From positions 1 to 20,734 of IMG/VR virus record IMGVR_UViG_3300025108_000477: a stretch of 20,734 nucleotides of DNA; one strand, written 5' to 3'. Of the stretch, positions 1,523 through 17,620 are shown one piece after another. The notes beneath the pieces were generated by a model that was not told the origin of the DNA, searched no databases, and worked only from the letters and a program-made list of their open reading frames with translations. How positions within the stretch are numbered: the stretch's first letter is position 1; every line of letters begins with the position of its first letter. This DNA is from a virus. The position numbers and the translations under genes were made by a program.

Positions 1523-1780
1523 TTAACCGTTTTTAGATGATTTTGTAGAAAAAGAAGGTTTAATGTCTGGTCCAAATTTCTTTTTAGGTACCGGGGGTGG
1601 TTTATTTTGTTTATCTAGCTTACTATAGTGTTCAGCTATAGTTGCATATGTAAATTTTCGTAACCATATTGGCATGTTATATACATCGTTCCACGAGTAA
1701 CCTCCTTTACCGTGAAATACGATTTCGTGTATTTGTGTAAATATTTGTTGTCGATGTTTAGGCGTCAGGCCAAAAAAAGT
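1523..1780 (-). CDS. Small ORF with no standard start codon; probable +1 frameshift extension of the gp26-like protein (tail assembly chaperone type)
   Basis: This frame opens after a TAG at 1781-1783 and ends at TAA 1523-1525, 85 sense codons. It contains no ATG, GTG or TTG until an internal ATG at codon 36. Yet the sequence looks strongly protein-like from the beginning: IHEIVFHGKGGYSWNDVYN followed by MPIWLRKFTYATIAEHY, then a Lys/Pro-rich tail. It lies one base forward (+1) of the gp26-like gene and overlaps its last 23 bases including the stop. A +1 shift on the T7 run at 1772-1778 would join residue Phe243 of the gp26-like protein to Gly-Leu-Thr-Pro-Lys, giving a product of about 325 residues. 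Known tail assembly chaperone pairs (lambda G/GT, P2 E/E') sit directly before the tape measure and use frameshifting in the same way. Alternatives are initiation at CTG (1766-1768) or translational coupling. Confidence 0.65.
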   Translation of the reverse strand, partial: TFFGLTPKHRQQIFTQIHEIVFHGKGGYSWNDVYNMPIWLRKFTYATIAEHYSKLDKQNKPPPVPKKKFGPDIKPSFSTKSSKNG

Positions 1781-2501
1781 CTATCCCTACCGGGATGATG
1801 ACGTCCTCCTCACCGCCATCCTTATTTGTAAATTTACAAGTAAGGTCAATATCAGGATTTATAGTTTCGTAAAACTTTCTAATAGCTCTAGCATCTTTGG
1901 CTAGTAAAAAATTATCTACAAATTCTCTAATATCTTTAGTTTCTTTAATCCCGTTAACTGAGGTAATAAGATGTTTCAATCTTGAACTACTCGAAGTATT
2001 TCCATCTTTATTAAATTTTTTATTACCGTCGATTTCTTCTTGTATCTTTTTTTCATCTCTAGCAGTTAAACATTTAATAGTAACTGTATTATCGGTATGG
2101 GGTAACTTAAACGCAAATTCATTTATATTGTCTTCAAATAAACTATAGTCTATTTTTTTATTATCTAAAGCTGCTAAATCAGCTTTGACTATTTCTCCTC
2201 CATAAACGAATTCATAATCCTTTCCGTATGATAAAATCCTACACGCTATAAATAATGCGTTCTTATCTCCTATTAATAAATCTTTTATATTAATATCTTT
2301 ATTCACTATTAATGAAGAAAGTAGTTTATCCATTACAATACCTTTAGTAATATAATTAGTATTAGTTAGAATATCTTCTTCTTTAGCTGTCATATACTTC
2401 ATCTCTATGATACCTGATGAAAGAGGAGATTCTTTTGGATAAAGTAAGCCTTTTGATGGTAAATCCACCGATTCTGTCGGTAAACTAAATTTTGATTCCA
2501 T
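1758..2501 (-). CDS. T4 gp26-like baseplate hub / tail assembly protein
   Basis: The protein has 247 residues. Its N-terminal layout, LPSKGLLYP followed by an EMKYMTAKEEDILTN segment, then DKLLSSLI and LLIGDKNALFIACRILSYG near residues 75-94, matches the T4 gp26-type baseplate protein family of T4-like phages (T4 gp26 is about 208 residues). The C-terminal ending FFWPDA also fits my recollection of the family, so the 0-frame stop looks genuine and not a lesion. In T4, gp26 is assigned to baseplate central hub assembly. Here the position immediately before the tape measure, and the overlapping frame at its 3' end, also suggest a tail assembly chaperone role, with the short form made by normal termination and a long form by frameshifting. 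The start ATG at 2501 follows an A/T-rich leader with no Shine-Dalgarno sequence. A terminator separates it from the tail tube gene upstream, so it needs its own promoter; TATTTATA at 2531-2538 is a candidate. Confidence 0.75.
   Translation of the reverse strand: MESKFSLPTESVDLPSKGLLYPKESPLSSGIIEMKYMTAKEEDILTNTNYITKGIVMDKLLSSLIVNKDINIKDLLIGDKNALFIACRILSYGKDYEFVYGGEIVKADLAALDNKKIDYSLFEDNINEFAFKLPHTDNTVTIKCLTARDEKKIQEEIDGNKKFNKDGNTSSSSRLKHLITSVNGIKETKDIREFVDNFLLAKDARAIRKFYETINPDIDLTCKFTNKDGGEEDVIIPVGIDFFWPDA
1772..1778 (-). other. Candidate +1 ribosomal frameshift slippery site (T7 run)
   Basis: On the coding strand the gp26-like frame reads GAC TTT TTT TGG CCT GAC GCC TAA. A Phe-tRNA on the second TTT can re-pair perfectly after moving one base forward. 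It then reads GGC CTG ACG CCT AAA and enters the 1523-1780 frame. The +1 frame is closed by TAG at 1781-1783 just upstream, and the 0 frame is closed by TAA at 1758-1760. Any shift must therefore occur in this short overlap. An AGGGA lies five bases before the TTT run and resembles the spacing of a stimulatory Shine-Dalgarno-like element; its role is uncertain. Confidence 0.5.
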
Positions 2502-2613: not shown

Positions 2614-3099
2614 TTAGTAATTCAATACACAGTAGTCCATTGATACTGTCATCTGTAAATCTACTACTTCTGAATTTGCCCAATCAAATGATCCGAAGTT
2701 AGCAGTTTGTATGAATGCTCCTTTTATTACCCATTCACCGATTATATCACCTACAGGTCCTAAAATATTTAGAGTTAAGTCTTTTTTGTAAAAATCTGAA
2801 TAACCAGCTCTTCCAGTTACTGATTCATAAGAAAGACGAGCCCATTCCATTACTGCTTGTGCTCCTGATGGTGTTATTGGGTCATATAAAGTCATTTCTA
2901 TATCACTCCATTCTCTTTTTCCACGTATTTTTCTGTACGTGTTAATGTGGTCAAGTTTAACAACTTCGTCTGTAAAGCTTGGAGCTGCTACGTTCTTAAC
3001 CATAAAGGATGGAATACCGTCTATAAATAAGACAAATCTGTTTTGTACTTTCGGTTCGAAAGCTTTAAACATTATTTCATTTGGGTCTAATACTGCCAT
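2614..3099 (-). CDS. gp19: Tail tube protein, T4 gp19-like
   Basis: The protein has 161 residues, close to the 163 of T4 gp19. It stacks as hexameric rings forming the inner tail tube through which DNA passes. Family-like features are NRFVLFIDGIPSFMVKNVAAPSF near residues 20-43, the IEMTLYDPITPSGAQAVMEW segment near residues 67-86, and a C-terminal half with NILGPVGDIIGEWVIKGAFI and MTVSMDYC typical of the tube beta-barrel. It follows the sheath gene by 42 bases, the conserved sheath-tube order, and is closed by a strong terminator. The leader carries TATTTATA at 3121-3128 and an A-rich stretch before the ATG with no Shine-Dalgarno sequence. Because the tube is needed in high copy number, an extra promoter in this gap is plausible. 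Confidence 0.9.
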   Translation of the reverse strand: MAVLDPNEIMFKAFEPKVQNRFVLFIDGIPSFMVKNVAAPSFTDEVVKLDHINTYRKIRGKREWSDIEMTLYDPITPSGAQAVMEWARLSYESVTGRAGYSDFYKKDLTLNILGPVGDIIGEWVIKGAFIQTANFGSFDWANSEVVDLQMTVSMDYCVLNY

Positions 3100-3141: not shown

Positions 3142-4863
3142 TTATGCTCCAAAAGTTGCACCTGTTGGCTCAACTGTGAAGTCAAGTACAATAAATTCTG
3201 CTGTTTTAGCTGGTTGAATAAATATTTGACCTACTAATTGGTTTCTATCTACTATGTCAGCTGAGTTATTAGAATCATCCATTACGACTCTAAATGCATA
3301 TAGCCCTTGTCTTGATACTACTGTATCTAAATAAGGATTAACTGCTGCTAAGAATTTATTTCTTGTATTGATTGTATTTTGTTCGAATACTAAGTTTTGT
3401 GCTTGATTACCGACAAACTCTTTAAGTTCGATTAATAATCTTCTTACATTTACTCTATCTAAAGCTGATGCTTTAGTTTGTAAAGTCTTTTGACCAAATA
3501 CTGCTATTCCTGTTCCAGGGAAAGTAGCTATTGGGTTAACTTTAGCATCATATAAACTATCTCTTTGTACTCTTGATAATCTTCTTTCTGCTTGAATAAC
3601 TCCTGTTAATCCTCCTCTTACAAGTCCTGCTGGTGCAAACCATGGTGCAGAAGATCCATCTGTAAATGCATATACTCCAGGAATAAATACTGAAGCTGGT
3701 GCCCATACATTCTTACCTGTGCCAGACTGAGTCTGTAACCAAGGCCAGTATGATGCTGCATATGAACTGTTAAGCAAATCAGCTTGTCCAGTTATGTTAG
3801 ATACTGTTCCTCCGTGTCCGTAAAGGTCTGCTATAAATATACAGTCTCCTCTGCTCTCTGCTAAATCGATTAATGAGCTAATTGAAGTACCGTGATTATT
3901 ATTATTTAATCCTGGTGCTGTAATTACATTGAATCTATAATCATCTGAGTTACCTAATAAAGTTATTACCTTATCGTAACATCCTTTTGTTAGCCCTTGA
4001 GATCTTGTTCCTACATTATCATAGTAATTGTCTCCTCCTACAACGTTAGCTCCAGAAGCATTGAAGAATGATCCTGAACCTTCTATCGGTAGAGACCCTG
4101 TAAGACTGTCTAGTCTTCTTGCGCCATCGTTTCCGATATAATTAATAGTAGGTGAATTTACTGCGCTAATTCTAACGTAATTAGATTTGTTAACATATTC
4201 TCCAGTAACAGTAACGTTATCTCCTGTTCCGGAAATAGCCTCTACTTGATTACCTATTTGTTTTTCAATATAGTTTTCTGAATTAGGATCTAAGCTTAAA
4301 TTATTAAATGTTTCTAATACAATTTTATTTTTAAGATTATCATCTCCTCTACGTATTGATAAAGTAAATGTTCCTTTAGCTATATTTTTGTTTGAAATTT
4401 CCCATCTTAAGTTATCAGCAGATCCGCTTTTTAATGAGCTATCACTGTTTGATTCTCCTGCATCTAAAGATGCTGTTGAGTTATTATATAGGGTACCTTT
4501 TCCTATTGTATTTAATTGAAAAGGTTGAATTGAATCATTTGCTGAAGCAGAGATAAAAGTACTTCCTGCTGCTGTAAAAGATCCTGTTACAACTCTAGCT
4601 ACTAATAAAGAATTACCTCCTTGAGAGAAGTAATTTTTAGCTGCCATAGAAGTAAAAAATTCTTGTTTAGTTGAACCTGATTCAAATGTGTCTCCAAATA
4701 CTCTTACATATTCGTTATAAGAAGTAACTGTAGTAGGGATTTCAACTGGTCCTTTTACTGCTGGGCCAATTATACATGCTCCAACTTCTGCTGGTGCTGG
4801 GGAGATAAAAGAGATATCGTTTTCTCTTTGAAATACACCTGGGGAGATAATAGTTTCTGCCAT
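3142..4863 (-). CDS. gp18: Tail sheath protein, T4 gp18-like
   Basis: The protein has 573 residues (T4 gp18 has 659). The N-terminus, ISPGVFQREND near residues 6-16 then GPAVKGPVEIPTTVTSYNEYVRVFG, is the typical start of contractile tail sheaths. The last third holds the conserved core: GLTGVIQAERRLSRVQRDSLYDA, FPGTGIAVFGQKTL, NVRRLLIELKEFV, and the C-terminal GQIFIQPAKTAEFIVLDF. The middle, roughly residues 95-270, is Ser/Asn/Gly-rich and looks like the variable surface-exposed insertion found in many sheaths. The sheath polymer contracts during infection to drive the tube through the envelope. It directly follows the terminator that ends the glycan cassette, so it probably starts a new transcription unit, with TATTTATT at 4893-4900 as a candidate promoter element. 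If the cassette modifies the virion, the exposed sheath insertion is one possible target; this is inference only. Confidence 0.95.
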   Translation of the reverse strand: MAETIISPGVFQRENDISFISPAPAEVGACIIGPAVKGPVEIPTTVTSYNEYVRVFGDTFESGSTKQEFFTSMAAKNYFSQGGNSLLVARVVTGSFTAAGSTFISASANDSIQPFQLNTIGKGTLYNNSTASLDAGESNSDSSLKSGSADNLRWEISNKNIAKGTFTLSIRRGDDNLKNKIVLETFNNLSLDPNSENYIEKQIGNQVEAISGTGDNVTVTGEYVNKSNYVRISAVNSPTINYIGNDGARRLDSLTGSLPIEGSGSFFNASGANVVGGDNYYDNVGTRSQGLTKGCYDKVITLLGNSDDYRFNVITAPGLNNNNHGTSISSLIDLAESRGDCIFIADLYGHGGTVSNITGQADLLNSSYAASYWPWLQTQSGTGKNVWAPASVFIPGVYAFTDGSSAPWFAPAGLVRGGLTGVIQAERRLSRVQRDSLYDAKVNPIATFPGTGIAVFGQKTLQTKASALDRVNVRRLLIELKEFVGNQAQNLVFEQNTINTRNKFLAAVNPYLDTVVSRQGLYAFRVVMDDSNNSADIVDRNQLVGQIFIQPAKTAEFIVLDFTVEPTGATFGA

Positions 4864-4892
4864 GTCTTGGTTTAGTTTAATTATTGTATATT

Positions 4893-4900
4893 AATAAATA
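4893..4900 (-). promoter_or_regulatory. TATTTATT motif ahead of the tail sheath gene
   Basis: The coding strand reads TATTTATTAATATA, about 30 bases before the sheath ATG and downstream of the terminator at 4914-4935. A perfect TATTTATA also occurs at 4949-4956, but it lies before the terminator, so the 4893-4900 copy is the better promoter candidate. Confidence 0.35.
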
Positions 4901-4913
4901 TATTGTCTATTTC

Positions 4914-4935
4914 GAAAAACTCTTGTAAACAGAGT
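4914..4935 (-). terminator. Probable intrinsic terminator between the glycan cassette and the sheath gene
   Basis: On the minus strand ACTCT (4931-4935) pairs with AGAGT (4919-4923), five base pairs around a seven-base loop. It is followed by a run of T (complement of 4915-4919). It lies 34 bases after the stop of the 114-residue coiled-coil gene, where the long overlapping gene chain ends. The stem is short, so it may be leaky. Confidence 0.55.
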
Positions 4936-4968
4936 ATTTGTCTTCTTATATAAATAGATACTAAAAGT

Positions 4969-5313
4969 CTAAAGTGATGAAGGAATAAAAGTACCTTTGG
5001 AAGGATTAATTGTACCGTCTCCGTACTTAGATTGAAGATCTTTAGCTAGAGCTGCGTTTTGTTCGTTAGTCTCTTTAGTAAATTGACTCAAAGCAGCTTT
5101 CTTCTTATCTATATATAGTTCGATTTTACCTATTTCTTCTAATAAATCCTGTTTGTGCTGGGAGTTTATTACAGTGTTAATTTTTTTAGATAGTTCTATT
5201 TTTAAATTAGCTATTTCTATGATATCTGTTTTAATTAGATCTAATCTTTTTTCTATTATTTTAACATTATCAAATTCCTCTTTTTTTAATTTTTTTGCTC
5301 TTTTTACTGCCAT
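4969..5313 (-). CDS. Small coiled-coil protein of unknown function
   Basis: The protein has 114 residues and is highly charged. Residues about 1-90 are almost entirely Lys/Glu/Ile/Leu-rich helix with heptad-like spacing (IIEKRLDLIKTDIIEIANL and IELSKKINTVI), so a coiled coil is likely. The end, LQSKYGDGTINPSKGTFIPSSL, is a short Gly/Pro segment of a kind I associate with small coiled-coil phage proteins. No signal peptide or membrane segment is seen. Its start overlaps the stop of the glycosyltransferase-like gene upstream by 10 bases, so it is translated as the last member of the cassette. It is followed by a terminator and the sheath gene. It may be a structural or scaffolding protein that happens to end the cassette transcript rather than a glycan enzyme. 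Function unknown. Confidence 0.75.
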   Translation of the reverse strand: MAVKRAKKLKKEEFDNVKIIEKRLDLIKTDIIEIANLKIELSKKINTVINSQHKQDLLEEIGKIELYIDKKKAALSQFTKETNEQNAALAKDLQSKYGDGTINPSKGTFIPSSL

Positions 5314-5969
5314 TGTTTATTGTTTGGTAACTTAAGATTAATATCTTGAATTAATTCTATATTATAACATTCAAATAATTCTTTCCACAGTAGACTACCT
5401 TCGTATTCTTTTGCAACCCACCATTGAAGTTTATTATCTAATTTAATTGCCTCTTTCATAAATCCATCTTGATAGCTTTTGCTACCGTCGTCTTGAAACA
5501 TTTTATCTATTACGTACGGATAACAGGTAAAGATTCTTTCGTCCATTGCTTTATAGTGAATATACCCGTAAACACATTCCTCTTTTGTTGTATCGTTTAA
5601 TAAAGGTTGATTTTGAAGATATGCTTTTCTAAAGCTATTACTCATGTCTTCTTTATATTCAATAGTATCTATATCGAGATCTGGTTTAAATTTTACTATG
5701 GACTTATACTTATATGGGTCTTTAATTAAACTTGTAGCATAGTATGTAGACTGTAAGTAAGATATTCTTTTTCTTTTATGTTCTGGTTTGGTAAACATAA
5801 AGGTAGTTTCATTACAGTATTTTTTATATCTGTCTAATTTTTTTATCCACCTTTGATTATCCTCTGTTTGCCAAGAATGTACAAATAGATCAGTTTCTTT
5901 ATCTAAGAATGGAATAATATTATCAGAGAGATTATATAAAAATCCGGATATAAAGACAGCTTTATTCAT
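5304..5969 (-). CDS. Glycosyltransferase-like protein, divergent member of a five-paralogue family
   Basis: The protein has 221 residues from the ATG at 5967-5969. It starts MNKAVFISGFLYNLSDN, then DLFVHSW at residues 27-33 and IVKFKPDLD at 91-99. These line up with the N-terminal strand, the D-F-x-x-x-W motif and the Arg-Pro-Asp motif of four other proteins in this window (6402, 15076, 16856, 18928), although here Arg is Lys. The layout resembles a GT-A type nucleotide-sugar transferase, with the Pro-Asp motif in place of DxD; this is inference. A GTG at 5985-5987 with an upstream AGGAG could add six residues (IILLT segment). I prefer the ATG because the homologues begin right at this strand and the genome rarely uses Shine-Dalgarno sequences. 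It overlaps the GDPD-like gene upstream by 8 bases. Confidence 0.65.
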   Translation of the reverse strand: MNKAVFISGFLYNLSDNIIPFLDKETDLFVHSWQTEDNQRWIKKLDRYKKYCNETTFMFTKPEHKRKRISYLQSTYYATSLIKDPYKYKSIVKFKPDLDIDTIEYKEDMSNSFRKAYLQNQPLLNDTTKEECVYGYIHYKAMDERIFTCYPYVIDKMFQDDGSKSYQDGFMKEAIKLDNKLQWWVAKEYEGSLLWKELFECYNIELIQDINLKLPNNKQWQ

Positions 5970-6405
5970 AGTTAATAATATAATCACTGCAGACTCCTAA
6001 TCTGTCTGTAAGTTTATCGTTTTTAAGTTCAGGTAAGACAGCAATACTATTTGGTATATAGCAACCAGGGTTAGCCCACATATTACCTTTAGAAGTTAAT
6101 GCTACATCATCACTATCATGCCAAAAGTAATTAAAGTACACACCACCTCTATCTATCTCTATTAATTTAGAAAGAGCATCGTAATTTTTACAATGTATCC
6201 ATAATTTCCTATAGTAAGTTGTAATAAATTCAAATGGTATTTCATACTGAGGTTCATCATGACCAAGTATGAATTTATCTTTAACGTACCAGAAGTCTAC
6301 TTCACAGTCGTATCCTTTTTCAATAGCATTAGATATATAGGAAGGTTTATTTTCCTTATCTGTATTAGGTCCATCTATATTTCCTCTATGTGATATTAAG
6401 ATCAT
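5962..6405 (-). CDS. Short GDPD-like phosphodiesterase (PLC-like TIM-barrel family)
   Basis: The protein has 147 residues. It shows the glycerophosphodiester phosphodiesterase signature: ISHRGN with His6-Arg7 at the start, CEVDFWYVKDKFILGHDEP with Glu35, Asp37 and His49, and WIHCKN near 69-74 where the family has a conserved basic strand. Enzymes of this superfamily hydrolyse glycerophosphodiesters or related phosphodiesters with a metal ion. Full-length members have about 230-300 residues, so this is a reduced form that may lack part of the barrel. No signal peptide is visible, so it acts in the cytoplasm of the infected cell. In this cassette it could trim or transfer a phosphodiester-linked substituent (for example a glycerol-phosphate-type group); the true substrate cannot be read from sequence. 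It overlaps both neighbours by a few bases. Confidence 0.65.
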   Translation of the reverse strand: MILISHRGNIDGPNTDKENKPSYISNAIEKGYDCEVDFWYVKDKFILGHDEPQYEIPFEFITTYYRKLWIHCKNYDALSKLIEIDRGGVYFNYFWHDSDDVALTSKGNMWANPGCYIPNSIAVLPELKNDKLTDRLGVCSDYIINYE

Positions 6406-7211
6406 TCTTTATCAGTTGTTTCAAATATAACTCTAGCTTTATCGCTGTTTCCTTTAGTAAGTAACCATTCAGCACCGTACTCTTTTAGAATATTTTTAAA
6501 CTGTACCGGAGATGGATGTTTAACAGGCCATCCTGAATCTGTGTGAGCACCGTCTGGTTCGAATCTCATCGGCTCTCTAATTAATAACCCTTGAGCTATT
6601 TGAGCTCTTCCACCGTTCCAGGTTGATCTGTTGTATATATTACGGTAGTTTAAGTACTCAGCTTGCATAATATGCATTAAGAGTTCATCTTCTGTAAAAG
6701 AGTTTTTAATATATAAATCTTCAAACATTTGGCTGAACTTATTAAATGTATTTCGGTTTCCAAAAAAGAACATATCATCTGTCCATAACTTGCCGTTATG
6801 TAGTGAGCTACCTGTATAAGAGTATATTATATTTTCTCCTATTTGGTCTTCTTTGAATAGTAATATAAGTTCGTCTAATAGTTCTCTGAATAGATAAAAA
6901 TCAGATCTAGTTTGTAAAACAGCATCATAATCTTTTGTTAGAAGTTCATTAGCTTTGAATAATGTATAGCTATAATGAGGTTGATGACATCTATAAGCAT
7001 GATTTTTAAGATCGTAAGGACAATCGTCTTCTTTAAGTCTTATAAAACCTTCTATCCAATCAAACTGAGAATAATCTATGTCATCCTCCCAGGTAGCTAA
7101 GTAAAAATCGAACTTAACATCAGAGTATAGGTTATTCCAGTTATTAAAAAGTGGATCAAGAAGATCTAAATACTTTCCGCTACCGTTAATTAGTACAGCA
7201 ATATTGATCAT
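6402..7211 (-). CDS. Glycosyltransferase-like protein (paralogue family, close to the 15076-15936 protein)
   Basis: The protein has 269 residues. Family landmarks are MINIAVLINGSGKYL at the N-terminus, FDFYLATW at 34-41, YDAVLQTRSDFYLF at 95-108, and a later block DDMFFFGNRNTFNKFSQMF followed by MQAEYLNYRNIYN. The last two blocks match the 15076-15936 protein closely (KFSRMF and QAEYLNYIRIYN), so these two are nearest relatives. The Arg-x-Asp motif after a hydrophobic strand is where GT-A transferases bind the nucleotide sugar and metal. A cytoplasmic glycosyltransferase role is therefore likely but inferred. Its stop and start overlap the neighbours by 4 bases (ATGA), showing tight translational coupling with the SGNH protein before it and the GDPD-like protein after it. 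Confidence 0.7.
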   Translation of the reverse strand: MINIAVLINGSGKYLDLLDPLFNNWNNLYSDVKFDFYLATWEDDIDYSQFDWIEGFIRLKEDDCPYDLKNHAYRCHQPHYSYTLFKANELLTKDYDAVLQTRSDFYLFRELLDELILLFKEDQIGENIIYSYTGSSLHNGKLWTDDMFFFGNRNTFNKFSQMFEDLYIKNSFTEDELLMHIMQAEYLNYRNIYNRSTWNGGRAQIAQGLLIREPMRFEPDGAHTDSGWPVKHPSPVQFKNILKEYGAEWLLTKGNSDKARVIFETTDKE

Positions 7212-8083
7212 AATAATTTTATTGAAGGAACTGGTTTTATAGTTTCAGAGCTAGTATAATCATATCCTGAGGTATAATTAGCTGGGTTAATTGATAATGC
7301 ATTAAAATTTTCTGTCGTAACTAACTCTACCATTATATTAGCCAGTATATTATTATCATATGCTAGAGGATGACCATTAATATGTTCTGGTGCATATTGA
7401 CTTATAAAATCTACCCAAGTGCATAGAGTATTTTGTTTATAAGGCTGTCCAAAGTTAAAAAAATTAAAGCTATTTGTTGTTGAAGATAATTCATCATACA
7501 TTATACCTTTTATTTCTGACTTGCTATTAAGAAAAAAACTAGAAAATACTATAACTTTAGTTTTACGTACAGCAGCAAAATCAGACACCATGTTTAATTG
7601 TTGAACAAGTTCAGTTATAGCAGTACGGTCATTATATAAGTATTTGTAATGATTATCTAAAGTACCACTTAGCTGTGACATTGAAGCATATTTAGCTATA
7701 TGGTTTTCATATGTACCTACATTAAAATGATAATCAGATGGTGTTATATGATGGTACTTATTAGTATCTAAGATAGGTATTTCATGTCTTGCTAATTCAG
7801 TTAACGCTAAGACTGCTAATGTAGGTTGACTTCTTGGTTTCTCTTTTAAGTATTCGTAAAATTTTCTTATGATATACTTGTTGGAGTGGCCGGGTCGTGC
7901 ATCATTAGTTAACTTAGTATTTAATTTAGCACTTAAAAAATTAGGAAAAGATAAATTATGAAATTGAGAAGGGTTGTAGTTACTCTTAGTTAACTCTGCT
8001 CTTTTTGTTAACCCCTCATCATCATAAGCTCTAACTAAAAAGCTACAGCCACCGGTATATAGGTTTTTAATTTTTTTAAGCAT
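7208..8083 (-). CDS. Divergent SGNH (GDSL-like) hydrolase/acyltransferase family protein
   Basis: The protein has 291 residues. It has a block I-like motif TGGCSF with Ser14, a block II-like ARPGHSNKYI with Gly65, a block III position reading LALTELAR (residues about 91-98, in place of the usual GxND), and a block V-like INGHPLAYDN with His238. The same four blocks recur in the proteins at 9446, 11054 and 18179. SGNH proteins are esterases or O-acyltransferases; in polysaccharide clusters they often add or remove acetyl groups. The usual Asp three residues before the catalytic His is not evident. The C-terminal 50 residues extend past block V and are not recognisable. It overlaps the HAD-nucleotidyltransferase gene by 8 bases and the following glycosyltransferase-like gene by 4. 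Confidence 0.65.
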   Translation of the reverse strand: MLKKIKNLYTGGCSFLVRAYDDEGLTKRAELTKSNYNPSQFHNLSFPNFLSAKLNTKLTNDARPGHSNKYIIRKFYEYLKEKPRSQPTLAVLALTELARHEIPILDTNKYHHITPSDYHFNVGTYENHIAKYASMSQLSGTLDNHYKYLYNDRTAITELVQQLNMVSDFAAVRKTKVIVFSSFFLNSKSEIKGIMYDELSSTTNSFNFFNFGQPYKQNTLCTWVDFISQYAPEHINGHPLAYDNNILANIMVELVTTENFNALSINPANYTSGYDYTSSETIKPVPSIKLL

Positions 8084-9449
8084 TTTCTAAATAGTATTTT
8101 AAATCTTCAGGAGTTCCTAATCCCCACATGTTATCCACGTTAAAAATTCTTATAGCTTTGTTATCTTTAATAGCTTGATTAAATACAGGACAAACATAAA
8201 ATTCGTTATTTACTCTTACATTTTCTTCGATCATCTCTTCAGCGTACTTGACAAAATCAGACCCTTGTTTCCAGTAATAAAATCCAACAGTAGCTGTATC
8301 AGAGATTGGTTTCTTTTCTGCTACTTCTGTAACTAGTCCTTTTTCATCTACTTTTGCAAAAGACCATTTAGGGTGAGTAGCTTTGAACGTTACTATACCA
8401 CCATCAGCCTCTGTTTCATTCATCTTATATAAAAATTCATTACTATCCCACTCAACAAATTGATCTGAGTTGGCAAAGAATAAAGGTTTATCGTTATCTA
8501 TATATTTCTTAGCTAGTAGAGCTGTACATGCTGCTCCTTCTGTTACTCCTTCTACTTCGACTATTTTACATTTAGGAGTTATTAAGTTTAACAGAGTATC
8601 TAGGTTATATTTTTTTCTATGTGCTTTCTGTACCACGTAAACAAAGTTAGCTTTTATGTTTAAGTTTTCAGTTACTACTTGAATCATAGGTTTACCTTTG
8701 ACGTCTATGAGAGGTTTAGGAAAAGTATACCCGGCTTGTTCGAATCTACTTCCTGCTCCAGCCATAGGAATGAGTACCGTTAAGTTATCGTCTCTCCATG
8801 CTGGTGTTGTTTGTTTCTCTCCGTTATCTACTGTGTCTATTTTATTCATAATATTATTATATGTTACTTCTTTAGGATTCTTTACTCTTAAAATATACGA
8901 TTTACTTCTCGCGGCGGCAAGTAATCCGTAAGGAGAATCTTCTACTATTAAAGTCTCTTCGGGAAGCATACTCATAGTTGATATAGCTTTCCAGTACATT
9001 TCTGGGTGTGGTTTACTATTAGTAACATCTTCGTTGGATATTATAAGATCTAAATACTCTATCAGTCCAAGTTTAGCCAGTACAGTAAGTACTGTTCTTC
9101 TTATAGAGTTAGAACATACTGCCAGTTTAAAGCCATCTTTATATAGTAACTGAAATGTAGCTATTAAATCTTCATCTGGTTCTAAATCAGAAAGTTTTTG
9201 TAGTGTTAGTTGCTGTTTTTTATTCCATACATCGTTATGTACTTCGGCTGGTAATCCTTTTTCTTTGGTTAGTAGATCTAGTTTTTGAAATGTCTTTAAT
9301 CCGTCGTAAGTGTTCAAATGTTCCGACCATCCTATTTTGTATCCAGGGTTGATACTCGATAATGCTTCATTTAGAGCATCAAAATGTATATTTTTAGCTT
9401 CTACTAATACTCCGTCTAAATCGAATATAATTAATTTTATTGCACTCAT
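8076..9449 (-). CDS. Fused HAD phosphatase and sugar-phosphate-type nucleotidyltransferase
   Basis: The protein has 457 residues in two domains. Residues 1-about 205 form a HAD-superfamily hydrolase: motif I FDLDGVLVEA with Asp10 and Asp12, motif II VCSNS with Ser113, the Lys146 of NSKPHPEMY, and motif IV VEDSPYG with Asp171. Residues about 222-457 form a GT-A-fold nucleotidyltransferase: LIPMAGAGSRF near 227-236, FPKPLIDVKGKPMI with Lys245, and FANSDQF with Asp329. Such transferases activate a phosphorylated sugar or alcohol to an NDP derivative. The intact motifs suggest both halves are active. The HAD half could make or remove a phosphate on the same metabolite, so one polypeptide could dephosphorylate an intermediate and activate another. 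The nucleotide is unknown; the sequence resembles hexose-1-phosphate or LicC-like enzymes more than CMP-sialate synthetase. Flanked by SGNH genes with 4-8 base overlaps. Confidence 0.85.
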   Translation of the reverse strand: MSAIKLIIFDLDGVLVEAKNIHFDALNEALSSINPGYKIGWSEHLNTYDGLKTFQKLDLLTKEKGLPAEVHNDVWNKKQQLTLQKLSDLEPDEDLIATFQLLYKDGFKLAVCSNSIRRTVLTVLAKLGLIEYLDLIISNEDVTNSKPHPEMYWKAISTMSMLPEETLIVEDSPYGLLAAARSKSYILRVKNPKEVTYNNIMNKIDTVDNGEKQTTPAWRDDNLTVLIPMAGAGSRFEQAGYTFPKPLIDVKGKPMIQVVTENLNIKANFVYVVQKAHRKKYNLDTLLNLITPKCKIVEVEGVTEGAACTALLAKKYIDNDKPLFFANSDQFVEWDSNEFLYKMNETEADGGIVTFKATHPKWSFAKVDEKGLVTEVAEKKPISDTATVGFYYWKQGSDFVKYAEEMIEENVRVNNEFYVCPVFNQAIKDNKAIRIFNVDNMWGLGTPEDLKYYLENA

Positions 9450-10240
9450 AATGATTGTATATAATTGTAAAGATACTTAGCCCATGCTCGATGAGAAATA
9501 TCTGTTGGATGATTTGTAATGATGAATTTTTCTCTTATACTGTACTCTTCAGGTGTAATAGGGTCTGCTATATCGTATTTACTAGTTATATACTCTTTAA
9601 AATGAGCAGCTTTTGGATTATAATTTATCCACTTGGTTTTATCTACATACTGACTTAAGTAATGATCATCAAAGTCTTCAAACTGATCAAAAGCATTGAA
9701 CATGAGGTATTCGATATTATTGTTATTGAAATAATTCTGCAAGCTTAAAATTTGTGTTAGAAATTCGTTTTGTATATATTTTTCCCGTTTGTATAAATCA
9801 TTTGCTAATGTAAAATTATCAGGCCTTTGTTGTTCTACTCTGAGTTCATCATTTTCTGAAAGGTAGATTGGTATTCTAGTTTTTGAAGTCCATCCTATTA
9901 TTGCAAATATATCTTTCTTACCTTGTGCTTTTAGCCATTCTATTGATTGTACAGTGGTTGAATATATCCCATGGTTGCTGTCTCCTAGTCTACCGGCATT
10001 CCAAGTTTCTACACCCAGTCTTTTTCCTAACATTTTTGGCCAAATGTCTGAATCATAGAACTTATACAATATTCTAGTGTCATTATTAATTTTTATTCTA
10101 TTATTAATATAGTATTTGTATAGTGCTCCAAAGTAAGGTACAATATCATACCAGTCTTCTGTTTTAGTAGCTTCCCAGTTTATGTCTTGAGCTGGTGAAT
10201 CACCTTGTGTCCAGCTATCACCGTTTGTAAATAATATCAT
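9446..10240 (-). CDS. SGNH (GDSL-like) family protein
   Basis: The protein has 264 residues. It begins MILFTNGDSWTQGDSP, a canonical block I GDSW with Ser9 as candidate nucleophile. Block II is WNAGRLGDSNHGI with Gly83 and Asn89. The block III position reads IIGWTSKTR (114-122). Block V-like TNHPTDISHRAWAKYL carries His244 and His250. Of the four SGNH paralogues here this has the most typical block I. The long middle (roughly 125-225) is rich in Tyr, Phe and Asn and differs from the others, suggesting a different substrate. A likely role is O-acetyl or other acyl transfer or removal on the glycan; this is inferred from context. No signal peptide is visible. ATGA overlaps link it to the NeuB-like gene upstream and the HAD-nucleotidyltransferase gene downstream. 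Confidence 0.7.
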   Translation of the reverse strand: MILFTNGDSWTQGDSPAQDINWEATKTEDWYDIVPYFGALYKYYINNRIKINNDTRILYKFYDSDIWPKMLGKRLGVETWNAGRLGDSNHGIYSTTVQSIEWLKAQGKKDIFAIIGWTSKTRIPIYLSENDELRVEQQRPDNFTLANDLYKREKYIQNEFLTQILSLQNYFNNNNIEYLMFNAFDQFEDFDDHYLSQYVDKTKWINYNPKAAHFKEYITSKYDIADPITPEEYSIREKFIITNHPTDISHRAWAKYLYNYIQSL

Positions 10241-11070
10241 TTAAATCTTCCTCTATAATAATCGTGATTAAATATTTGTTGTTCGTTAAACTGGTTAAGT
10301 TCACGATACTGGTCATCTTTTGATAAAGTACTAAACCTTTTTATCTCTGACATCATCTTTGGAGTAACTGATACTTTACCGTCTCGAGTATCATCTATAT
10401 CAAGAACTGTAAAATGTCTCTCTATAACATCTATACCTTGAAATATAGCTAACTTAGAAGATAATAAGTTATCTTCATGAGGATTAGTGTGGTCACTTAA
10501 CCCAACATTCTTGACTCCAAGTTGGTTACGAAAATATTCTATATTCTGTAAATTAAGTTTAGACAAAGGAGTTGGGTATACACAGGTACATTGTAACATA
10601 TAGTATTCAATTCCCATCTCATTTAGATTATTAACAGTTTGTTTAATCTCTTCTATAGTTAAACTAGAGGTAGAGAAGAATAATCTTTTAAACTTAAAGT
10701 TTTTTAACTTTTTACCGTAATCAAAAGCTGGAATAGAGTAACCTGATAGTTTTAAGTTATCATAACCTAACTCGTTAAACCTAGGAGCGTGTTGAGGTAC
10801 AAAAACAGTAGTCATTGATTCTACTCCATACTCCATACATTTAAAGATAAAGAACTCTTCATCTATTCTAGATAACTCTAAACCTTTAAGTCTAACAAAC
10901 TCTGGTTCGTATGGTCTATATTCTTCATACTCCTTTCTGTAAGTAAATGTATTAGCTTTTATGGACTGTATTTTAACTATATCGCTACATACTGCAGCAT
11001 TTTTGACCATTCTTTCTAATAAATCTCTATCACCGTTGTGATTTTGACATAACTCAGATATTATTTTCAT
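10237..11070 (-). CDS. neuB: NeuB-like nonulosonate (sialic acid-type) synthase, catalytic domain only
   Basis: The protein has 277 residues forming the TIM-barrel domain of the N-acetylneuraminate/pseudaminate/legionaminate synthase family, which condenses phosphoenolpyruvate with a six-carbon aldose to make a nine-carbon acidic sugar. Motifs in order: SELCQNHNGD (5-14), VKIQSIKANTFT (32-43, Lys33), LKLSGYSIPAFDY (106-118), STSSLTIEEI (133-142), LQCTCVYPTP (159-168), GLSDHT (190-195, His194) and VIERHFTV (215-222, His219). The two His correspond to the metal ligands of the family. Characterised enzymes have about 340-350 residues with a C-terminal antifreeze-like (SAF) domain that helps close the active site of the partner subunit; here the protein ends soon after the barrel, so that domain is absent. 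Overlaps of 17 and 4 bases link it to SGNH genes on both sides. Confidence 0.85.
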   Translation of the reverse strand: MKIISELCQNHNGDRDLLERMVKNAAVCSDIVKIQSIKANTFTYRKEYEEYRPYEPEFVRLKGLELSRIDEEFFIFKCMEYGVESMTTVFVPQHAPRFNELGYDNLKLSGYSIPAFDYGKKLKNFKFKRLFFSTSSLTIEEIKQTVNNLNEMGIEYYMLQCTCVYPTPLSKLNLQNIEYFRNQLGVKNVGLSDHTNPHEDNLLSSKLAIFQGIDVIERHFTVLDIDDTRDGKVSVTPKMMSEIKRFSTLSKDDQYRELNQFNEQQIFNHDYYRGRFK

Positions 11071-11908
11071 CTATATATTTTAATATTTTATTTGCTAAAT
11101 TTTTATGTGATCCAGGTGATGGATGACCACCACTTGCAAATTCACCATAAGGTTTATACATACTTCTAGATCCTGATTCCCAGCTGCCGTATTTCTTGGT
11201 ATGTTTAGTATATATATCAGTATACCAGCAATCTGAGTTTATATGATACCCTCCTTCTTTTTTTAACTCGTAGTTCTTTGCTGTCTTATAACCAAACGAT
11301 AAGTAATTAGAAGATTGTTTAATTTTTTCTGATATTATATCTTCTATTGAATTGAATATTATATAAGGTATATTTTTATTATTTAAAAATCCAATAAGAA
11401 AAGTTAACTGCCAATCAAGTTTTTCTACTTCTAGTTGATTATCAAAAAAATACTTCATATTAAAGTTTACAAAGTTTTTTAATTTGTCAGTATTATTTTT
11501 ATTACCGGTGAGCTTTAGTGCCATATCTCTTGCTGCTTTCTCATTACTATCTGTATGGTAAAAATCTTCTAATTGATGCAAATCAAAAAAACGTTCATGG
11601 TGCTTTGAATATACTTCTTTACGAGCCAAACCTGATGTCCCTATCAATACAAGAGGAGTTTTATACGTCTTAGAGTTATTATCAAAGAACTTATAGATAG
11701 ATCTTAAAATAGATTCATTACTATATCCTGATCCGGCCATATTAACTTCCGGAATATTGTAATGATCTGCTAGTATTTTAGAAAATCTATACTTATCTCC
11801 AGCAAAATCTGTTGGCTCATTAGTATGTCTCAGGTCTTGACCTTTATTAATTGCATCACCGTGCACAAAACTACATCCAAATGCAGCTATACAGTCAAAT
11901 TTATTCAT
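11054..11908 (-). CDS. SGNH (GDSL-like) family protein
   Basis: The protein has 284 residues. Blocks: AAFGCSFVHGD (8-18, Ser13), VNMAGSGYSNESILRSIYKF (55-74, Gly61, Asn64), VLIGTSGLARKE (87-98), and SGGHPSPGSHKNLANKI near 259-275 with His262 and His268. It is closely related to the 18179-18931 protein, which shares GCSFV, SNExxIRxxY and the xGLxRKExY segment. Both replace the usual GDSL by GCSF. Probable esterase or O-acyltransferase fold acting on the cassette's glycan or a precursor; the acyl group and target are unknown. No signal peptide, so cytoplasmic. Its start overlaps the dehydrogenase gene by 4 bases (ATGA). Its stop lies 17 bases inside the NeuB-like gene, which is co-translated. 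Confidence 0.7.
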   Translation of the reverse strand: MNKFDCIAAFGCSFVHGDAINKGQDLRHTNEPTDFAGDKYRFSKILADHYNIPEVNMAGSGYSNESILRSIYKFFDNNSKTYKTPLVLIGTSGLARKEVYSKHHERFFDLHQLEDFYHTDSNEKAARDMALKLTGNKNNTDKLKNFVNFNMKYFFDNQLEVEKLDWQLTFLIGFLNNKNIPYIIFNSIEDIISEKIKQSSNYLSFGYKTAKNYELKKEGGYHINSDCWYTDIYTKHTKKYGSWESGSRSMYKPYGEFASGGHPSPGSHKNLANKILKYIDENNI

Positions 11909-12723
11909 ATCTTTTCTAAAACTCTTTTATAAGCCTTCTCTTGTGCTTCAATAGCTGTTCCTCCAACGTGTTTAGTAATGAATATACGATTATCATGATA
12001 ACATTTAAGTACTGTAGCTTTAGAGGTGTGTTCTTCTTGTATAACATCAGTCCCGTATCCTAATAACTTACCATCGTATAATAGTTTTACTATATCTCCT
12101 TCGTCAACGAATTCACCACGGCTTGTATTAACAATATAGATATTTTTTCTGAACTTTCCAACATATTCTTCATTAATATACTCTATGTTTGACTTTCTAT
12201 AATCGATATTGACACTTAAAAAATCAGTATTATTAAAAAAATCATCATCTATGAAATCTAAATCTGCTTTTAATACTGATTTAAATAACGGTTTAGCTAT
12301 TTTCTCTAATATTTTACCTAGTCTACCGTACCCTAAAATACCTAATGTTTTTTCTTTTAATTCTACTATCTTTCCTATCTCTCTAGGTAATGCTAAACAT
12401 AAGTATAGGTTGTGCTCTGCGGTAGAATATATTTGTTTAAGTATATTATCATTCTTTATTGAGATAACCGGTATAGAGACGTTTATATGATTGTCGCCAG
12501 TAGAAGGAGTTATTATTCCTTTTATGTTTGTTCCTTCTATATCTTTTTGCTCTATTATATATTTGAGATAATTTGGAGCTGCAAATAAATAATCTACACT
12601 TTTGAATATTTTTAGCTTATCTTTTGGTAAGCCAACCATATTAATACATTTATAATTACTCTTAACAAACTTACTAAATTCCGGTAAGTGTTGATACGGT
12701 GTTAAAAAACCTATTCTAATCAT
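11905..12723 (-). CDS. D-isomer-specific 2-hydroxyacid dehydrogenase (phosphoglycerate dehydrogenase-like)
   Basis: The protein has 272 residues, short for the family (about 310 or more). Motifs: STAEHNLYLCLAL (100-112), the NAD-binding LGILGYGRLGKILEKIAK (127-144), VNTSRGEFVDEGDIVKLL (198-215) with Arg202, LGYGTDV (221-227), and TKHVGGTAIEAQEKA (250-264) with catalytic His252. These enzymes interconvert a 2-hydroxyacid and a 2-oxoacid using NAD(H). The catalytic Arg and His are present, so it is probably active; the N-terminal substrate domain is shortened. Next to a PLP aminotransferase, one possibility is oxidation of a hydroxyacid followed by transamination, as in the serine pathway; another is a sugar acid. 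It overlaps its neighbours by 8 and 4 bases. Confidence 0.85.
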   Translation of the reverse strand: MIRIGFLTPYQHLPEFSKFVKSNYKCINMVGLPKDKLKIFKSVDYLFAAPNYLKYIIEQKDIEGTNIKGIITPSTGDNHINVSIPVISIKNDNILKQIYSTAEHNLYLCLALPREIGKIVELKEKTLGILGYGRLGKILEKIAKPLFKSVLKADLDFIDDDFFNNTDFLSVNIDYRKSNIEYINEEYVGKFRKNIYIVNTSRGEFVDEGDIVKLLYDGKLLGYGTDVIQEEHTSKATVLKCYHDNRIFITKHVGGTAIEAQEKAYKRVLEKI

Positions 12724-14116
12724 GATACATTTCTTTAGTTAATATCCACTCTTTATAATTTTTACCTGTCTTCCAGTATTCATGCTCACAATTTACTATC
12801 GCAAGCTTATTATCTTGACTTCTAGTTATAGCGACATCCCAATTAGTAAAGAATAGTAATTCATAATGATTTCTATATAAACCTTCTCTTAAACTTTCAT
12901 CGATATAGATACAATAACCTAAATATAAGTTTTGCTTTACAATTTTTTTAATATCTGTAGTTTCAACTTTTATAATATTCGGCCTAGTATATGGTTTTAA
13001 TTTAGATTCTTTAATTACATTCAAGTAGTCATCTGTTAAGCTAACTTTTTTTATGATACTGTTAAACTCATCTTTATAATTCTTACCGAGTAAATCTTTG
13101 ACTTGTAGAAGAAAAGTTTCCAAGGAGTGGTCTGGTCTTACTTTTGATTCGTTATTTTCTAACTCTTCGTTTATAGAGATATACTGTAGGAATTTCTTAG
13201 TAATTGTTAGTAAGTACCTATTAAGTTCTAAAGGTTTACAGTTAGTGTATATGTTAACTCTATTATTATGTACTTTATCCATAAAGTAATTAAAAGACCT
13301 AAATGAATTATCTATGTATATATCTGAAGGATGTACGGAAGTGGTAGGGTCTTTCTTAACATTCATCATATAGTATACCTTTGCAAGTGGAACTATTTCG
13401 TTACAACTAGTAGTTGGGTGTTCATGTGATTTAATATTATTTACTATGTCATACTTACTATAGTTATTTTCATAAGCATTAATATTTAACTCTATATCAT
13501 CTAAGTCGTCTGTAACTCCAGGGAGGACGTTATAAACCTGTGCTAACTTATCTATAGTATCTATTTTTGTTATATTATTAAAATTTACTAGCGAAATTCT
13601 GTCTTTAAATTTTTTAGGTATATAGAAAAGTACATTATTTAAGTTACGTTTACAGAATACTGCACTTTGTGCTCTAGTTTGACCAGGGTGTATAATTAAA
13701 TCTATATCTTCTTTATCATATCCATCTATATTGTCTATAATCACAGACTTATTTTGCGGTACATTCTCATTAATAATAACCGATATATGGATTGGCATAG
13801 AAGATGTAAAGTTAGCATCCATCATTTCACTTACTATGTTCATTTTTTGCCTGAGAGTAGAACTAAGGTCAAAATTATATGCTCTTTCTATAAACCTATC
13901 TGAAGCGTTAATGTATTTCATAATATTAGTATATAGTCCGTAATAGCCAAAAAGCCATTTTTTTCTTAAATGAAAAAATATATCATCAGTATCAGTCCTC
14001 CTAGTAATTCCAACATCATGTTGAGTTAACTTATAACTAAAGTTATTGATAGAATATACATCTGAGCTATCTAATACGTGCTTTACGCTCTCTATGCAAT
14101 TTTTGTTAAATTTCAT
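12716..14116 (-). CDS. Unrecognised 466-residue protein of the glycan cassette
   Basis: I do not recognise this protein. It is rich in Ile, Asn, Asp and Lys, with no signal peptide or obvious membrane segment. The most motif-like stretch is LIIHPGQTRAQSAVFCKR (140-157). The HPGQTR core and the preceding alternating hydrophobic segments suggest a phosphate- or nucleotide-handling loop at a strand-helix turn, but it matches no standard P-loop. The C-terminal region (LFFTNWDVAITRSQDNK then IVNCEHEYWKTGKNYKEW) may be a small separate domain. It sits between the PLP aminotransferase and the 2-hydroxyacid dehydrogenase with overlaps of 11 and 8 bases, so it is probably made with them and may belong to the same metabolic step or act on their product. 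Confidence 0.7.
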   Translation of the reverse strand: MKFNKNCIESVKHVLDSSDVYSINNFSYKLTQHDVGITRRTDTDDIFFHLRKKWLFGYYGLYTNIMKYINASDRFIERAYNFDLSSTLRQKMNIVSEMMDANFTSSMPIHISVIINENVPQNKSVIIDNIDGYDKEDIDLIIHPGQTRAQSAVFCKRNLNNVLFYIPKKFKDRISLVNFNNITKIDTIDKLAQVYNVLPGVTDDLDDIELNINAYENNYSKYDIVNNIKSHEHPTTSCNEIVPLAKVYYMMNVKKDPTTSVHPSDIYIDNSFRSFNYFMDKVHNNRVNIYTNCKPLELNRYLLTITKKFLQYISINEELENNESKVRPDHSLETFLLQVKDLLGKNYKDEFNSIIKKVSLTDDYLNVIKESKLKPYTRPNIIKVETTDIKKIVKQNLYLGYCIYIDESLREGLYRNHYELLFFTNWDVAITRSQDNKLAIVNCEHEYWKTGKNYKEWILTKEMYHD

Positions 14117-15113
14117 TTAATTTTAGATCATAATTAAATTTTATATACTCTTTACCATTGGGTAGAACAAGTGTTCTGAAGCTCATTCCAAGATCATTAA
14201 AATACTTTAGATTATCTTTATCAGTGAATCTTTCTAAATAAAACCAACTACCTTGAGTATCTATTATATTGTATCCTTCTTTTTTTAGTTTAAGAACAAA
14301 TTTTTCTTTACCTGTAATCATTTCATTAAAGTAAGATTGAAAATAATCAATATTGTCTATAATTAACTCAGTATACTTTGCACCAATAGCATTGATTTCA
14401 TACATAGATCTGAATTTAGATAGGTATTCCATGTTTTCTTTGTGACTGACTAAGAAACCTACTCTACACCCTGCTGCTCCGTAAGCCTTAGAAAAAGTTT
14501 TTGTTACTATTAAATTTTTGTACTCTTCAATTAACGGTATACTTGTTTCCTCCCCGGTAAATTCAAGGTACGCTTCATCTATTACAACAAAAACTTTAGT
14601 TTCTAAAAGCTTAATAATATCCTCCCTGCTATATAAATCTCCTAAAGGTGAGTTAGGGTTAGCTAGTATGATAAATTGAGTATCTTTGTCAATTAGTTTA
14701 ATGAGTTCATCAATATCAAGATGCATATTGGTATACTTTGCTTTTCTTAGCTCACATTGGTATAGATCACTAAATACCTGATACATTGGAAAAAAGTAAT
14801 CAGAAGTAATGACATTGTTACCTTTAACATTAAAAGTTTCAAATATAGTTTTAATAGCAAATGAAGATCCTGGTGTAAGTAATAAGTTATCTACATTAAT
14901 ACCGTAGTGGTTACAGATTTTATCTTTTAATACCGAAGTATTAGGGTAAAAACAAATATCATTCTGATTAAGAGAATTAAAGAATGCTCCAACAAATAGG
15001 TCTGCAAGTGGATGGTTCCTTTCATTTTGAGTTAAAACATATTTAAACTTTGTTTTATCCTCTTGATTGGATTTTCTATAGATATCTTTTAAGTGTCTTT
15101 TCATTTTTTGCAT
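14106..15113 (-). CDS. PLP-dependent class I/II aminotransferase (histidinol-phosphate aminotransferase-like)
   Basis: The protein has 335 residues. PLP fold-type I landmarks: LLTPGSSFAIKTIF (78-91), ILANPNSPLGDLYS (149-162) with Asn154, VVIDEAYLEF (176-185) with Asp179 and Tyr182, and VTKTFSKAYGAAGCRVGF (203-220) with Lys209 as the PLP Schiff-base lysine and Arg217. It resembles HisC and the related phosphoserine/threonine-phosphate decarboxylases, which also occur in capsule clusters. The C-terminal Arg that binds the substrate carboxylate in many family members (the usual LRI/VR position) reads YIKFNY, with Lys325, so the acceptor may not be a normal amino acid. The start overlaps the preceding gene by 38 bases. 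A second Met at residue 4 would shorten the overlap to 29, and neither has a clear ribosome binding site. Possible roles: amination of a keto-sugar or of an oxo-phosphate. Confidence 0.85.
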   Translation of the reverse strand: MQKMKRHLKDIYRKSNQEDKTKFKYVLTQNERNHPLADLFVGAFFNSLNQNDICFYPNTSVLKDKICNHYGINVDNLLLTPGSSFAIKTIFETFNVKGNNVITSDYFFPMYQVFSDLYQCELRKAKYTNMHLDIDELIKLIDKDTQFIILANPNSPLGDLYSREDIIKLLETKVFVVIDEAYLEFTGEETSIPLIEEYKNLIVTKTFSKAYGAAGCRVGFLVSHKENMEYLSKFRSMYEINAIGAKYTELIIDNIDYFQSYFNEMITGKEKFVLKLKKEGYNIIDTQGSWFYLERFTDKDNLKYFNDLGMSFRTLVLPNGKEYIKFNYDLKLNEI

Positions 15114-15936
15114 GTTTTGTAAAAATTGCTGTTATTTCTTTTTTTAAATCTTTTTTATATAAGTCTTTTCCGTATGTTTTATAAATTTCTTCTAAAGCAG
15201 ACGTAGAAGGATGAAAATAGTTTTTCGTTTGTACTTTTCTGTTTATTTTACCGTCAATTGATTCTTCTGCTGAGTTATATATTCTTATATAGTTTAAATA
15301 TTCAGCTTGTAATCTATGTAAGTTAAAAGGTGGAAATTTTTGTTCAACAAATATATCGTTAAACATTCTACTAAACTTAGTTATTCCTTTTAGTGATCCA
15401 ACAAAAACAGTATCTGCACCGCAAAAAAGGCCATCTTGACTATAAACCGTACCAGCTGATGAATAAATATTACTATCTCCAAAAGGAATATTATTGTTAT
15501 GTTCATTTGGGAGTATGTTATTAAACTTTTGAATTAAAAAATTAAAAAATGGTTTTTGAACAAATATATCTGGTCTAATCGTTACAGCAGCATCATATTT
15601 AGTTGTGCTTAATTCAGTAAGTTTTACAGCTTTACCAAGTAAGTATGAATAGTAGTGTTGATATTGTCTGATATGTGAAGTGGTTTCCTTCCATTCATAC
15701 TTAAAGTAGTTTACAAGGCTCTGGTTCATTTCATAGTACATATCATCTAGACTATGTATAGATACCTGTTTAAGAGGTAGGTATCTGTCTAATTCATCTG
15801 TTTGTCTATCTCCCCAAGTAGCTAAGAAAAAATCAAAGTGAATATTTGGATTTGAAAAATTCCATAGAGAAAAAATCTTACTGCATGTACTCCAGTCTCT
15901 TAATTCACCATGTAAACATACTGCTACTTTTAACAT
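15076..15936 (-). CDS. Glycosyltransferase-like protein (paralogue family)
   Basis: The protein has 286 residues. Landmarks: MLKVAVCLHGELRDW (1-15), HFDFFLATWGD (33-43), YDAAVTIRPDIFV (114-126), then DGLFCGADTVFVGSLKGITKFSRMF and LQAEYLNYIRIYN. It aligns block for block with the 6402-7211 protein and shares the first three blocks with the other three paralogues. The G-x-L-R motif, the D-F-x-x-x-W strand end and the R-P-D after a hydrophobic strand suggest a GT-A-like nucleotide-sugar transferase, although the family is not biochemically assigned as far as I know. It begins one base from the radical SAM stop (TAATG) and its end is overlapped by the aminotransferase start. Confidence 0.7.
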   Translation of the reverse strand: MLKVAVCLHGELRDWSTCSKIFSLWNFSNPNIHFDFFLATWGDRQTDELDRYLPLKQVSIHSLDDMYYEMNQSLVNYFKYEWKETTSHIRQYQHYYSYLLGKAVKLTELSTTKYDAAVTIRPDIFVQKPFFNFLIQKFNNILPNEHNNNIPFGDSNIYSSAGTVYSQDGLFCGADTVFVGSLKGITKFSRMFNDIFVEQKFPPFNLHRLQAEYLNYIRIYNSAEESIDGKINRKVQTKNYFHPSTSALEEIYKTYGKDLYKKDLKKEITAIFTKHAKNEKTLKRYL

Positions 15937-16859: not shown

Positions 16860-17620
16860 AAGTGTTTTTTTACAATATTTTTTACTTCATCTAAAGTTTT
16901 CACTTTTTTTAATTCTTCATCATATTGAGGTTCTGTGGTTAATTTTATGTCTTTTAGGTAATGGTGTCTTATCAGATCGAAATTTGCAAATGGTGCTATA
17001 ATGTTAAAGGGTGAAACTAGTAAATTAAACATCTTAACGTAGCATATAGGATCAGTATGGTAAGCAGAATGAAAAGGAGATTCGGTATTATTATGTAAAT
17101 GGTTAAACCCTAAGCAAAATAGATCTGCTGACTCTTCTGTAGCATAGAATACTTTATCATCTACATCAAATGGTTTAACACTTGAATTAGATATTTCTTT
17201 TTGAAACCAAGTTCTATATATCATTTGCTTATTCTTCAAAGTACTTAAAAAAGACCCTAATGTTTTTTCTTCTCCTATTTTTATTCTTAAATCAGGTCTC
17301 ATCATTATAACAAAGTCATAAGTTTTATCTGTTCTATTCTGATATTTCTTTCTTAGGTTTCTAGATTTTATTAAACAATACCCCCATCTCCATAATCCTT
17401 GGTATATAACTTTAGGAATGGGTAATAATTCTAAGTCTGTAAAAAAATTAAACTTGTCATCGTTGTAATTTGCTCTACTATACTCATCGTCCCAAAAACT
17501 ACCGAATACATCAACAGACTCTGCTTGTGTTCTAAGGAAATTAATAAAATTTTTGTACTGATCTACATTTTCCCACATTCTTAACTGACCAAAAATTTGA
17601 ATTGCTATATTATATTTCAT
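16856..17620 (-). CDS. Glycosyltransferase-like protein (paralogue family)
   Basis: The protein has 254 residues. Family blocks: MKYNIAIQIFGQLRMWENV (1-19), VDVFGSFWDD (36-45), TYDFVIMMRPDLRI (100-113). After this it diverges from the 6402/15076 pair but keeps a comparable length and a second half with Tyr/Phe-rich segments (DKVFYATEESADLFCLGFNHL). The G-Q-L-R-x-W motif is shared with the 18928 and 15076 paralogues. Inferred to transfer a sugar in the cytoplasm with a GT-A-like fold; donor and acceptor unknown. It lies between a short unknown protein and the radical SAM enzyme with overlaps of 11 and 4 bases. Confidence 0.65.
   Translation of the reverse strand: MKYNIAIQIFGQLRMWENVDQYKNFINFLRTQAESVDVFGSFWDDEYSRANYNDDKFNFFTDLELLPIPKVIYQGLWRWGYCLIKSRNLRKKYQNRTDKTYDFVIMMRPDLRIKIGEEKTLGSFLSTLKNKQMIYRTWFQKEISNSSVKPFDVDDKVFYATEESADLFCLGFNHLHNNTESPFHSAYHTDPICYVKMFNLLVSPFNIIAPFANFDLIRHHYLKDIKLTTEPQYDEELKKVKTLDEVKNIVKKHL

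Follow-up and report, generated by a model that had tools for sequence, protein, structure and literature searches.

Introduction

Tail assembly chaperone genes with frameshifts of -1, -2 or +1 occur across phages, T4 being singled out as an exception (PMC5009743). In lambda gpG/gpGT and other frameshifted chaperones, two overlapping frames precede the tape measure gene and give a short protein and a rarer extended one (PMC5009743). The locus described here has the same layout; lambda, however, makes a -1 shift, whereas our locus would shift +1 on a UUU-Y sequence that is no classic heptamer, in a protein of the T4 gp26 family. In T4 itself, gp26 and gp51 are described as hub assembly chaperones (PMC3004832). 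According to the work of Vladimirov et al. (2022) as presented with PRFect (PMC10885494), some T4-like phages use no frameshift but encode a short chaperone and a long, fused one in separate genes, and poly-T -1 signals in T4-like phages are credited elsewhere to the same study (PMC12846349). Our locus resembles T4 in its short protein and, through a cyanophage intermediate, perhaps also in the domain that follows it, which may be like the C-terminus of gp51; it differs from the separate short and fused genes of T4 in that it would use a frameshift. The haloarchaeal myovirus HSTV-2, a contractile-tailed virus with a chaperone shift that is very likely +1 (PMC5009743, PMC8211752), is similar in the direction of the shift but infects archaea.

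Here we analyse a stretch of 20,734 nucleotides of viral DNA (the window; IMG/VR record IMGVR_UViG_3300025108_000477). Comparison with its relatives indicates that in this phage, a contractile-tailed and distant relative of T4, expression of the tail assembly chaperone very probably involves a programmed +1 ribosomal frameshift.

Results

The tail genes of the window lie on the minus strand in the order sheath, tube, chaperone, tape measure, as they do in Flavobacterium phage immuto. The sheath gene (3142-4863) encodes a protein 60% identical to the sheath annotated in immuto, the gp19-like tube gene (2614-3099) matches PHROG 4542 (tail tube, E 1e-26), and the tape measure gene (3-1493), of which the N-terminal part is present before it runs off the window, has 27% identity over ~500 aa (E 5e-36) to the annotated immuto tape measure. 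Between tube and tape measure are two overlapping ORFs, the pattern by which frameshifted chaperones are recognised. The first (2501-1758) encodes a gp26-like protein of 247 aa, the short tail assembly chaperone, here TAC-N, and its 3' end reads ATA GAC TTT TTT TGG CCT GAC GCC TAA. The second (1780-1523), encoding the domain that we call TAC-C, consists of 85 codons and a stop, is open throughout, and shares, in the +1 frame, 23 nt with the 3' end of the TAC-N gene. A TAG at 1783-1781 forms its 5' boundary, with a single codon, ACT, between this TAG and TTT TTT GGC in the +1 frame, and no ATG, GTG or TTG precedes an ATG at 1675, 35 codons in, within the conserved MPIWLRK. The putative slippery site, TTT TTT T in GAC TTT TTT TGG CCT, occupies 1772-1778; translation with one base skipped there predicts a joined product, TAC-NC, of 325 aa (1523-2501; ...VGIDFFGLTPKHRQQ...). 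Inspection of the ORFs agrees with the first-pass annotation on the start-less frame, its TAG boundary, the +1 overlap with the gp26-like gene and GAC TTT TTT TGG, and the match to the immuto tape measure confirms the position of the pair (1523-2501) before the tape measure gene. Judged by occurrence in the window alone, the slip motif is not significant (TTTTTTTGG is found once, against ~0.6 expected by chance); its conservation is what is significant.

Beside the tail module, positions 5304-20633 hold more than 12 co-oriented genes, including those for NeuB, HAD and nucleotidyltransferase, aminotransferase, radical SAM/SPASM and 2-hydroxyacid dehydrogenase proteins, which form a large island of surface-sugar type.

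TAC-N belongs by its sequence to the T4 gp26 family, with matches to PHROG 150 (baseplate hub, E 5e-14), shared by 52 of 52 aligned TAC-N members, and to Pfam T4_baseplate (PF12322; 30.1 bits, cut-off 24.5). Structures were modelled for the TAC-N and TAC-C halves separately. The AlphaFold model of TAC-N (pLDDT 92) matches T4-like baseplate hub assembly proteins and an SP-15 protein in a viral fold library; against the PDB, the HK97 tail assembly chaperone 2ob9 (gp13) ranks second, an insignificant match (E 1.4, prob 0.33). TAC-C is modelled as a small three-helix domain (pLDDT 76). Profile comparisons suggest a distant relationship with the cyanophage domain (79.6%, E 1.5e-5 in hhalign) and, via it, with the end of T4 gp51 (cyanophage TAC-C against the gp51 C-terminus, 40.6%, E 3e-4), the direct comparison of the window-type profile with gp51 being insignificant (0.2%). 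Two members have a match (E 0.0013) to PHROG 634, annotated as baseplate hub assembly catalyst, and the KVP40 record already links a small ORF of its own to the gp51 C-terminus. Pfam DUF6760, matched by five of 52 TAC-C members (best E 1.7e-5), may represent this domain as it occurs in other contractile systems. The best reading of the pair is that TAC-N and a +1-frameshifted TAC-NC would be tail assembly chaperones encoded between tail tube and tape measure.

Across relatives we examined the second frame from the TAC-N stop to the common internal ATG. This start-less stretch is under strong purifying selection (pN/pS 0.20; median dN/dS 0.14 over 1196 pairs, which are not independent), with 11678 substitutions at third positions against 4642 and 2641 at the others. 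In 168 junctions the +1 frame has no stops, whereas frame 0 has stops in 167. The substitution counts and those over 168 junctions rest on junctions picked by motif, a choice that matters little because 231 of 233 +1 loci carry the motif. Conservation of the +1 frame starts at the Phe-Phe site, and where the CCT that follows TGG is changed to TCT, TTT or GTT, the TAC-N residue is altered and the +1 glycine is not. On the upstream side the open frame contains no NTG in 104 of 240 unique junctions, and in 75 of those 104 at least the first 20 codons downstream are free of NTG as well. Going by its sequence, the start-less stretch must be translated from upstream, and a change of frame would therefore be the simplest account.

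The same observations weigh against a separate gene, whether translated from a start codon inside the frame, from a non-standard one or by ribosomes re-initiating past the TAC-N stop, a reading that we consider very unlikely. Such a gene could begin at the ATG about 35 codons into the frame, where an NTG is found in 109 of 168 unique junctions, and in the GenBank records of immuto and SP-15 short ORFs are given internal starts. However, purifying selection also acts on the conserved stretch of some 30 codons ahead of that ATG, conservation beginning already at Phe-Phe; the methionine itself is replaced in immuto (FPIW) and in many others; 75 junctions have no NTG nearby; and in two loci (L219 and L198) the first NTG comes only at codons 44 and 54.

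A search with the +1 frame retrieved 80 relatives; wherever one of them also holds the upstream gene, the offset is +1 and the junction is TTT-YTT-TGG-CCT. Enlarged by second-frame searches with immuto, Mel-JY01 and SP-15 and by a junction-blind search with the TAC-N alignment, the set comes to 309 loci, whose TAC-C sequences fall into 32 clusters at 60% identity. Every locus has a Phe-Phe/Leu dipeptide at its junction, and 240 junctions are unique. A scan with the TAC-C of LR756508 as query gave no matches. In the junction-blind scan, the offset is +1 in 74 of the 75 loci with both parts, and the sole exception, L390, looks like a one-base indel. Left out of the set were this locus, L150 and L161, all with indels, and a -1 relative, L087. 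The three broken frames are interrupted away from the slip site (around the TAC-N stop in L390, inside TAC-N in L150 and L161), probably by assembly errors. Three loci (L326, L327 and L328) that show the +1 layout too were found by a profile scan in bacterial metagenome-assembled genomes (WOR-3 CP070664, a Flavobacteriales and an Actinomycetes), where they are probably phage sequence within the bins.

The first-pass annotation had singled out the T run, the +1 offset and the missing start codon as the features to follow in related phages. Over the 309 loci the offset, the frequent absence of a start and the slippery site, as TT[TC]-[TTT/CTT/CTA]-[TGG/TAY/TTC], are conserved, whereas the run itself varies: the 240 unique junctions read TTT TTT TGG in 157 cases, TTT CTT TGG in 55 and TTT TTT TAC in 22, with few others, among them TTC TTT in three. 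What these sequences share is a UUU codon for Phe with a pyrimidine behind it, inside a Phe-Phe/Leu pair, rather than a run of T. In all variants the pair includes an in-frame UUU with U or C after it, whether the site is TTT YTT, TTC TTT T, TTT CTA (LR756508), TTC TTT C (GXN1), TTT TTT C (SP-15) or TTT TTT A (LIS04, on the first codon), and full re-pairing of Phe-tRNA one base forward, proposed for the window, is possible in every one. The UUU-Y rule is consistent with an exact site and is no proof by itself, because a Phe-Phe pair at ~80% TTT often fits it by chance. A stronger sign for the site is how seldom TTC stands at the first codon, which is TTT in 306 of 309 loci and TTC in three, whereas TTC makes up ~20% of Phe codons in these genes.

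The same frame would be entered by a net -2 slippage of the ribosome, as recorded for phage Mu (PMC5009743), with one more residue in the product (DFFFGL). The seven-T run would permit it, and we nevertheless hold it to be highly improbable: re-pairing after -2 fails at TTC TTT TGG (L333, L403) and at TTC TTT CGT (GXN1), with a poor fit at TTT CTA TTC (LR756508), whereas +1 re-pairing works in every variant. The two readings predict different junction peptides, VGIDFFGLTPK under +1 and ...VGIDFFFGLTPK under -2; in the window protein the +1 product would contain DGGEEDVIIPVGIDFFGLTPK, with one extra F if the shift were -2.

Slippage of RNA polymerase on the T7 run, giving mixed mRNAs, would suit the seven T found in most loci. 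It is extremely improbable, as the +1 frame is kept in the 55 of 240 unique junctions with TTTCTTTGG and in the three with TTC TTT, where runs are of three to four T; such T-poor variants exclude long-run slippage in those lineages. The C-interrupted versions argue equally against a homopolymer error. Such errors are common, and L150, L161 and L390 resemble them elsewhere in the gene, but that the T run hides one in-frame fusion gene is almost certainly wrong, since the +1 offset recurs in independent metagenomes and in the isolates immuto, Mel-JY01, SP-15, LIS04 and GXN1, non-homopolymer versions included, and no same-frame fusion of TAC-N and TAC-C was seen among homologues of the +1 clade.

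Under the preferred reading, a programmed +1 frameshift, most ribosomes would complete the 247-aa TAC-N, and a minority would slip on the Phe-Phe codons, the P-site Phe-tRNA moving from UUU to the overlapping UUU or UUC. These ribosomes would enter the start-less frame and produce TAC-NC, that is, TAC-N extended at its C-terminus by a helical domain. If lambda gpG/gpGT is a guide, TAC-N may coat the tape measure protein and the minority TAC-NC may recruit tail tube subunits. We infer the ribosome as the slipping agent, the efficiency of slipping and the chaperone role from these comparisons. The slipping codon of the pair would be the first to judge by the CTT variants, and a slip in the TTC variants requires the second. 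Next to the pair, on its 3' side, the codon varies (TGG, TAC, TAT and TTC, and in distant members CAC, AGT and CGT), and therefore no rare or stop codon is common to the A site. No conserved RNA structure was found downstream or upstream (seven windows, mean z -0.2 to -1.0), and no consistent Shine-Dalgarno-like element upstream, one being present in less than half of the loci. At the +1 site of prfB (RF2), CUU UGA C, the A site holds a stop codon and a Shine-Dalgarno element lies upstream. The CTT variants, with CUU UGG C, share with it a +1 offset at a pyrimidine-rich codon, but neither the stop codon nor the Shine-Dalgarno element is conserved in the +1 chaperone loci. The sites also fall outside the class of classic -1 heptamers (X XXY YYZ), the downstream frame being +1 in all 309 loci.

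Homologous TAC-N proteins that end in Phe-Phe, with TAC-C in another frame, are also found in Kyanoviridae, KVP40 and the Agrobacterium phage Atu_ph07, where, in contrast to our loci, the second frame is at -1. All 81 cyanophage or Kyanoviridae-type gp26 loci (L091, L246-L325) end NNT TTT TTC Gxx stop, thus carrying T TTT TTC, with TAC-C at -1 and a conserved ATG ~14 nt after the TAC-N stop. In the cyanophages TAC-C may be made either by a -1 frameshift or from a separate start at this ATG. In KVP40 and Atu_ph07 the -1 offset is at Phe-Phe. The second frame of LR756511 is likewise at -1; in a tree of TAC-N the +1 members group together with LR756511 among them, the deeper order being unsure, with long branches.

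Discussion

Frameshifted tail chaperones, some of them +1, were already known, and what is added here is a probable +1 shift in the gp26 family, of which we found no earlier report in the literature searched, in which Vladimirov et al. (2022) was covered through later papers. The first-pass annotation had called a +1 shift unusual; it is unusual, but not without precedent, a handful of +1 chaperone shifts being on record in other phages.

The chances seem to us about even for a broader proposal, in which one chaperone family has switched the direction of its shift at the same Phe-Phe: the loci described here would go +1, those of cyanophages, KVP40 and the Agrobacterium phage -1, and T4 would have duplicated and fused genes in place of shifting. 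The signal for +1 would then be minimal, UUU-Y followed by sense codons, with neither stop codon nor RNA structure nor Shine-Dalgarno element, and would form a distinct bacterial +1 class.

There are practical consequences for annotation, as GenBank records give the second frame wrongly or omit it: TAC-C is given an internal start in immuto (4854-4964) and SP-15 (3821-3940) and is absent in LIS04 (after 3729). Well-studied bacterial examples of +1 frameshifting on sense codons only are few, and the hundreds of natural variants of one site, from marine and freshwater phages, offer material for deriving the rule of the slip. For the T4-like phages, the published view of T4 is one of separate genes, and many of its relatives appear to frameshift, in either direction.
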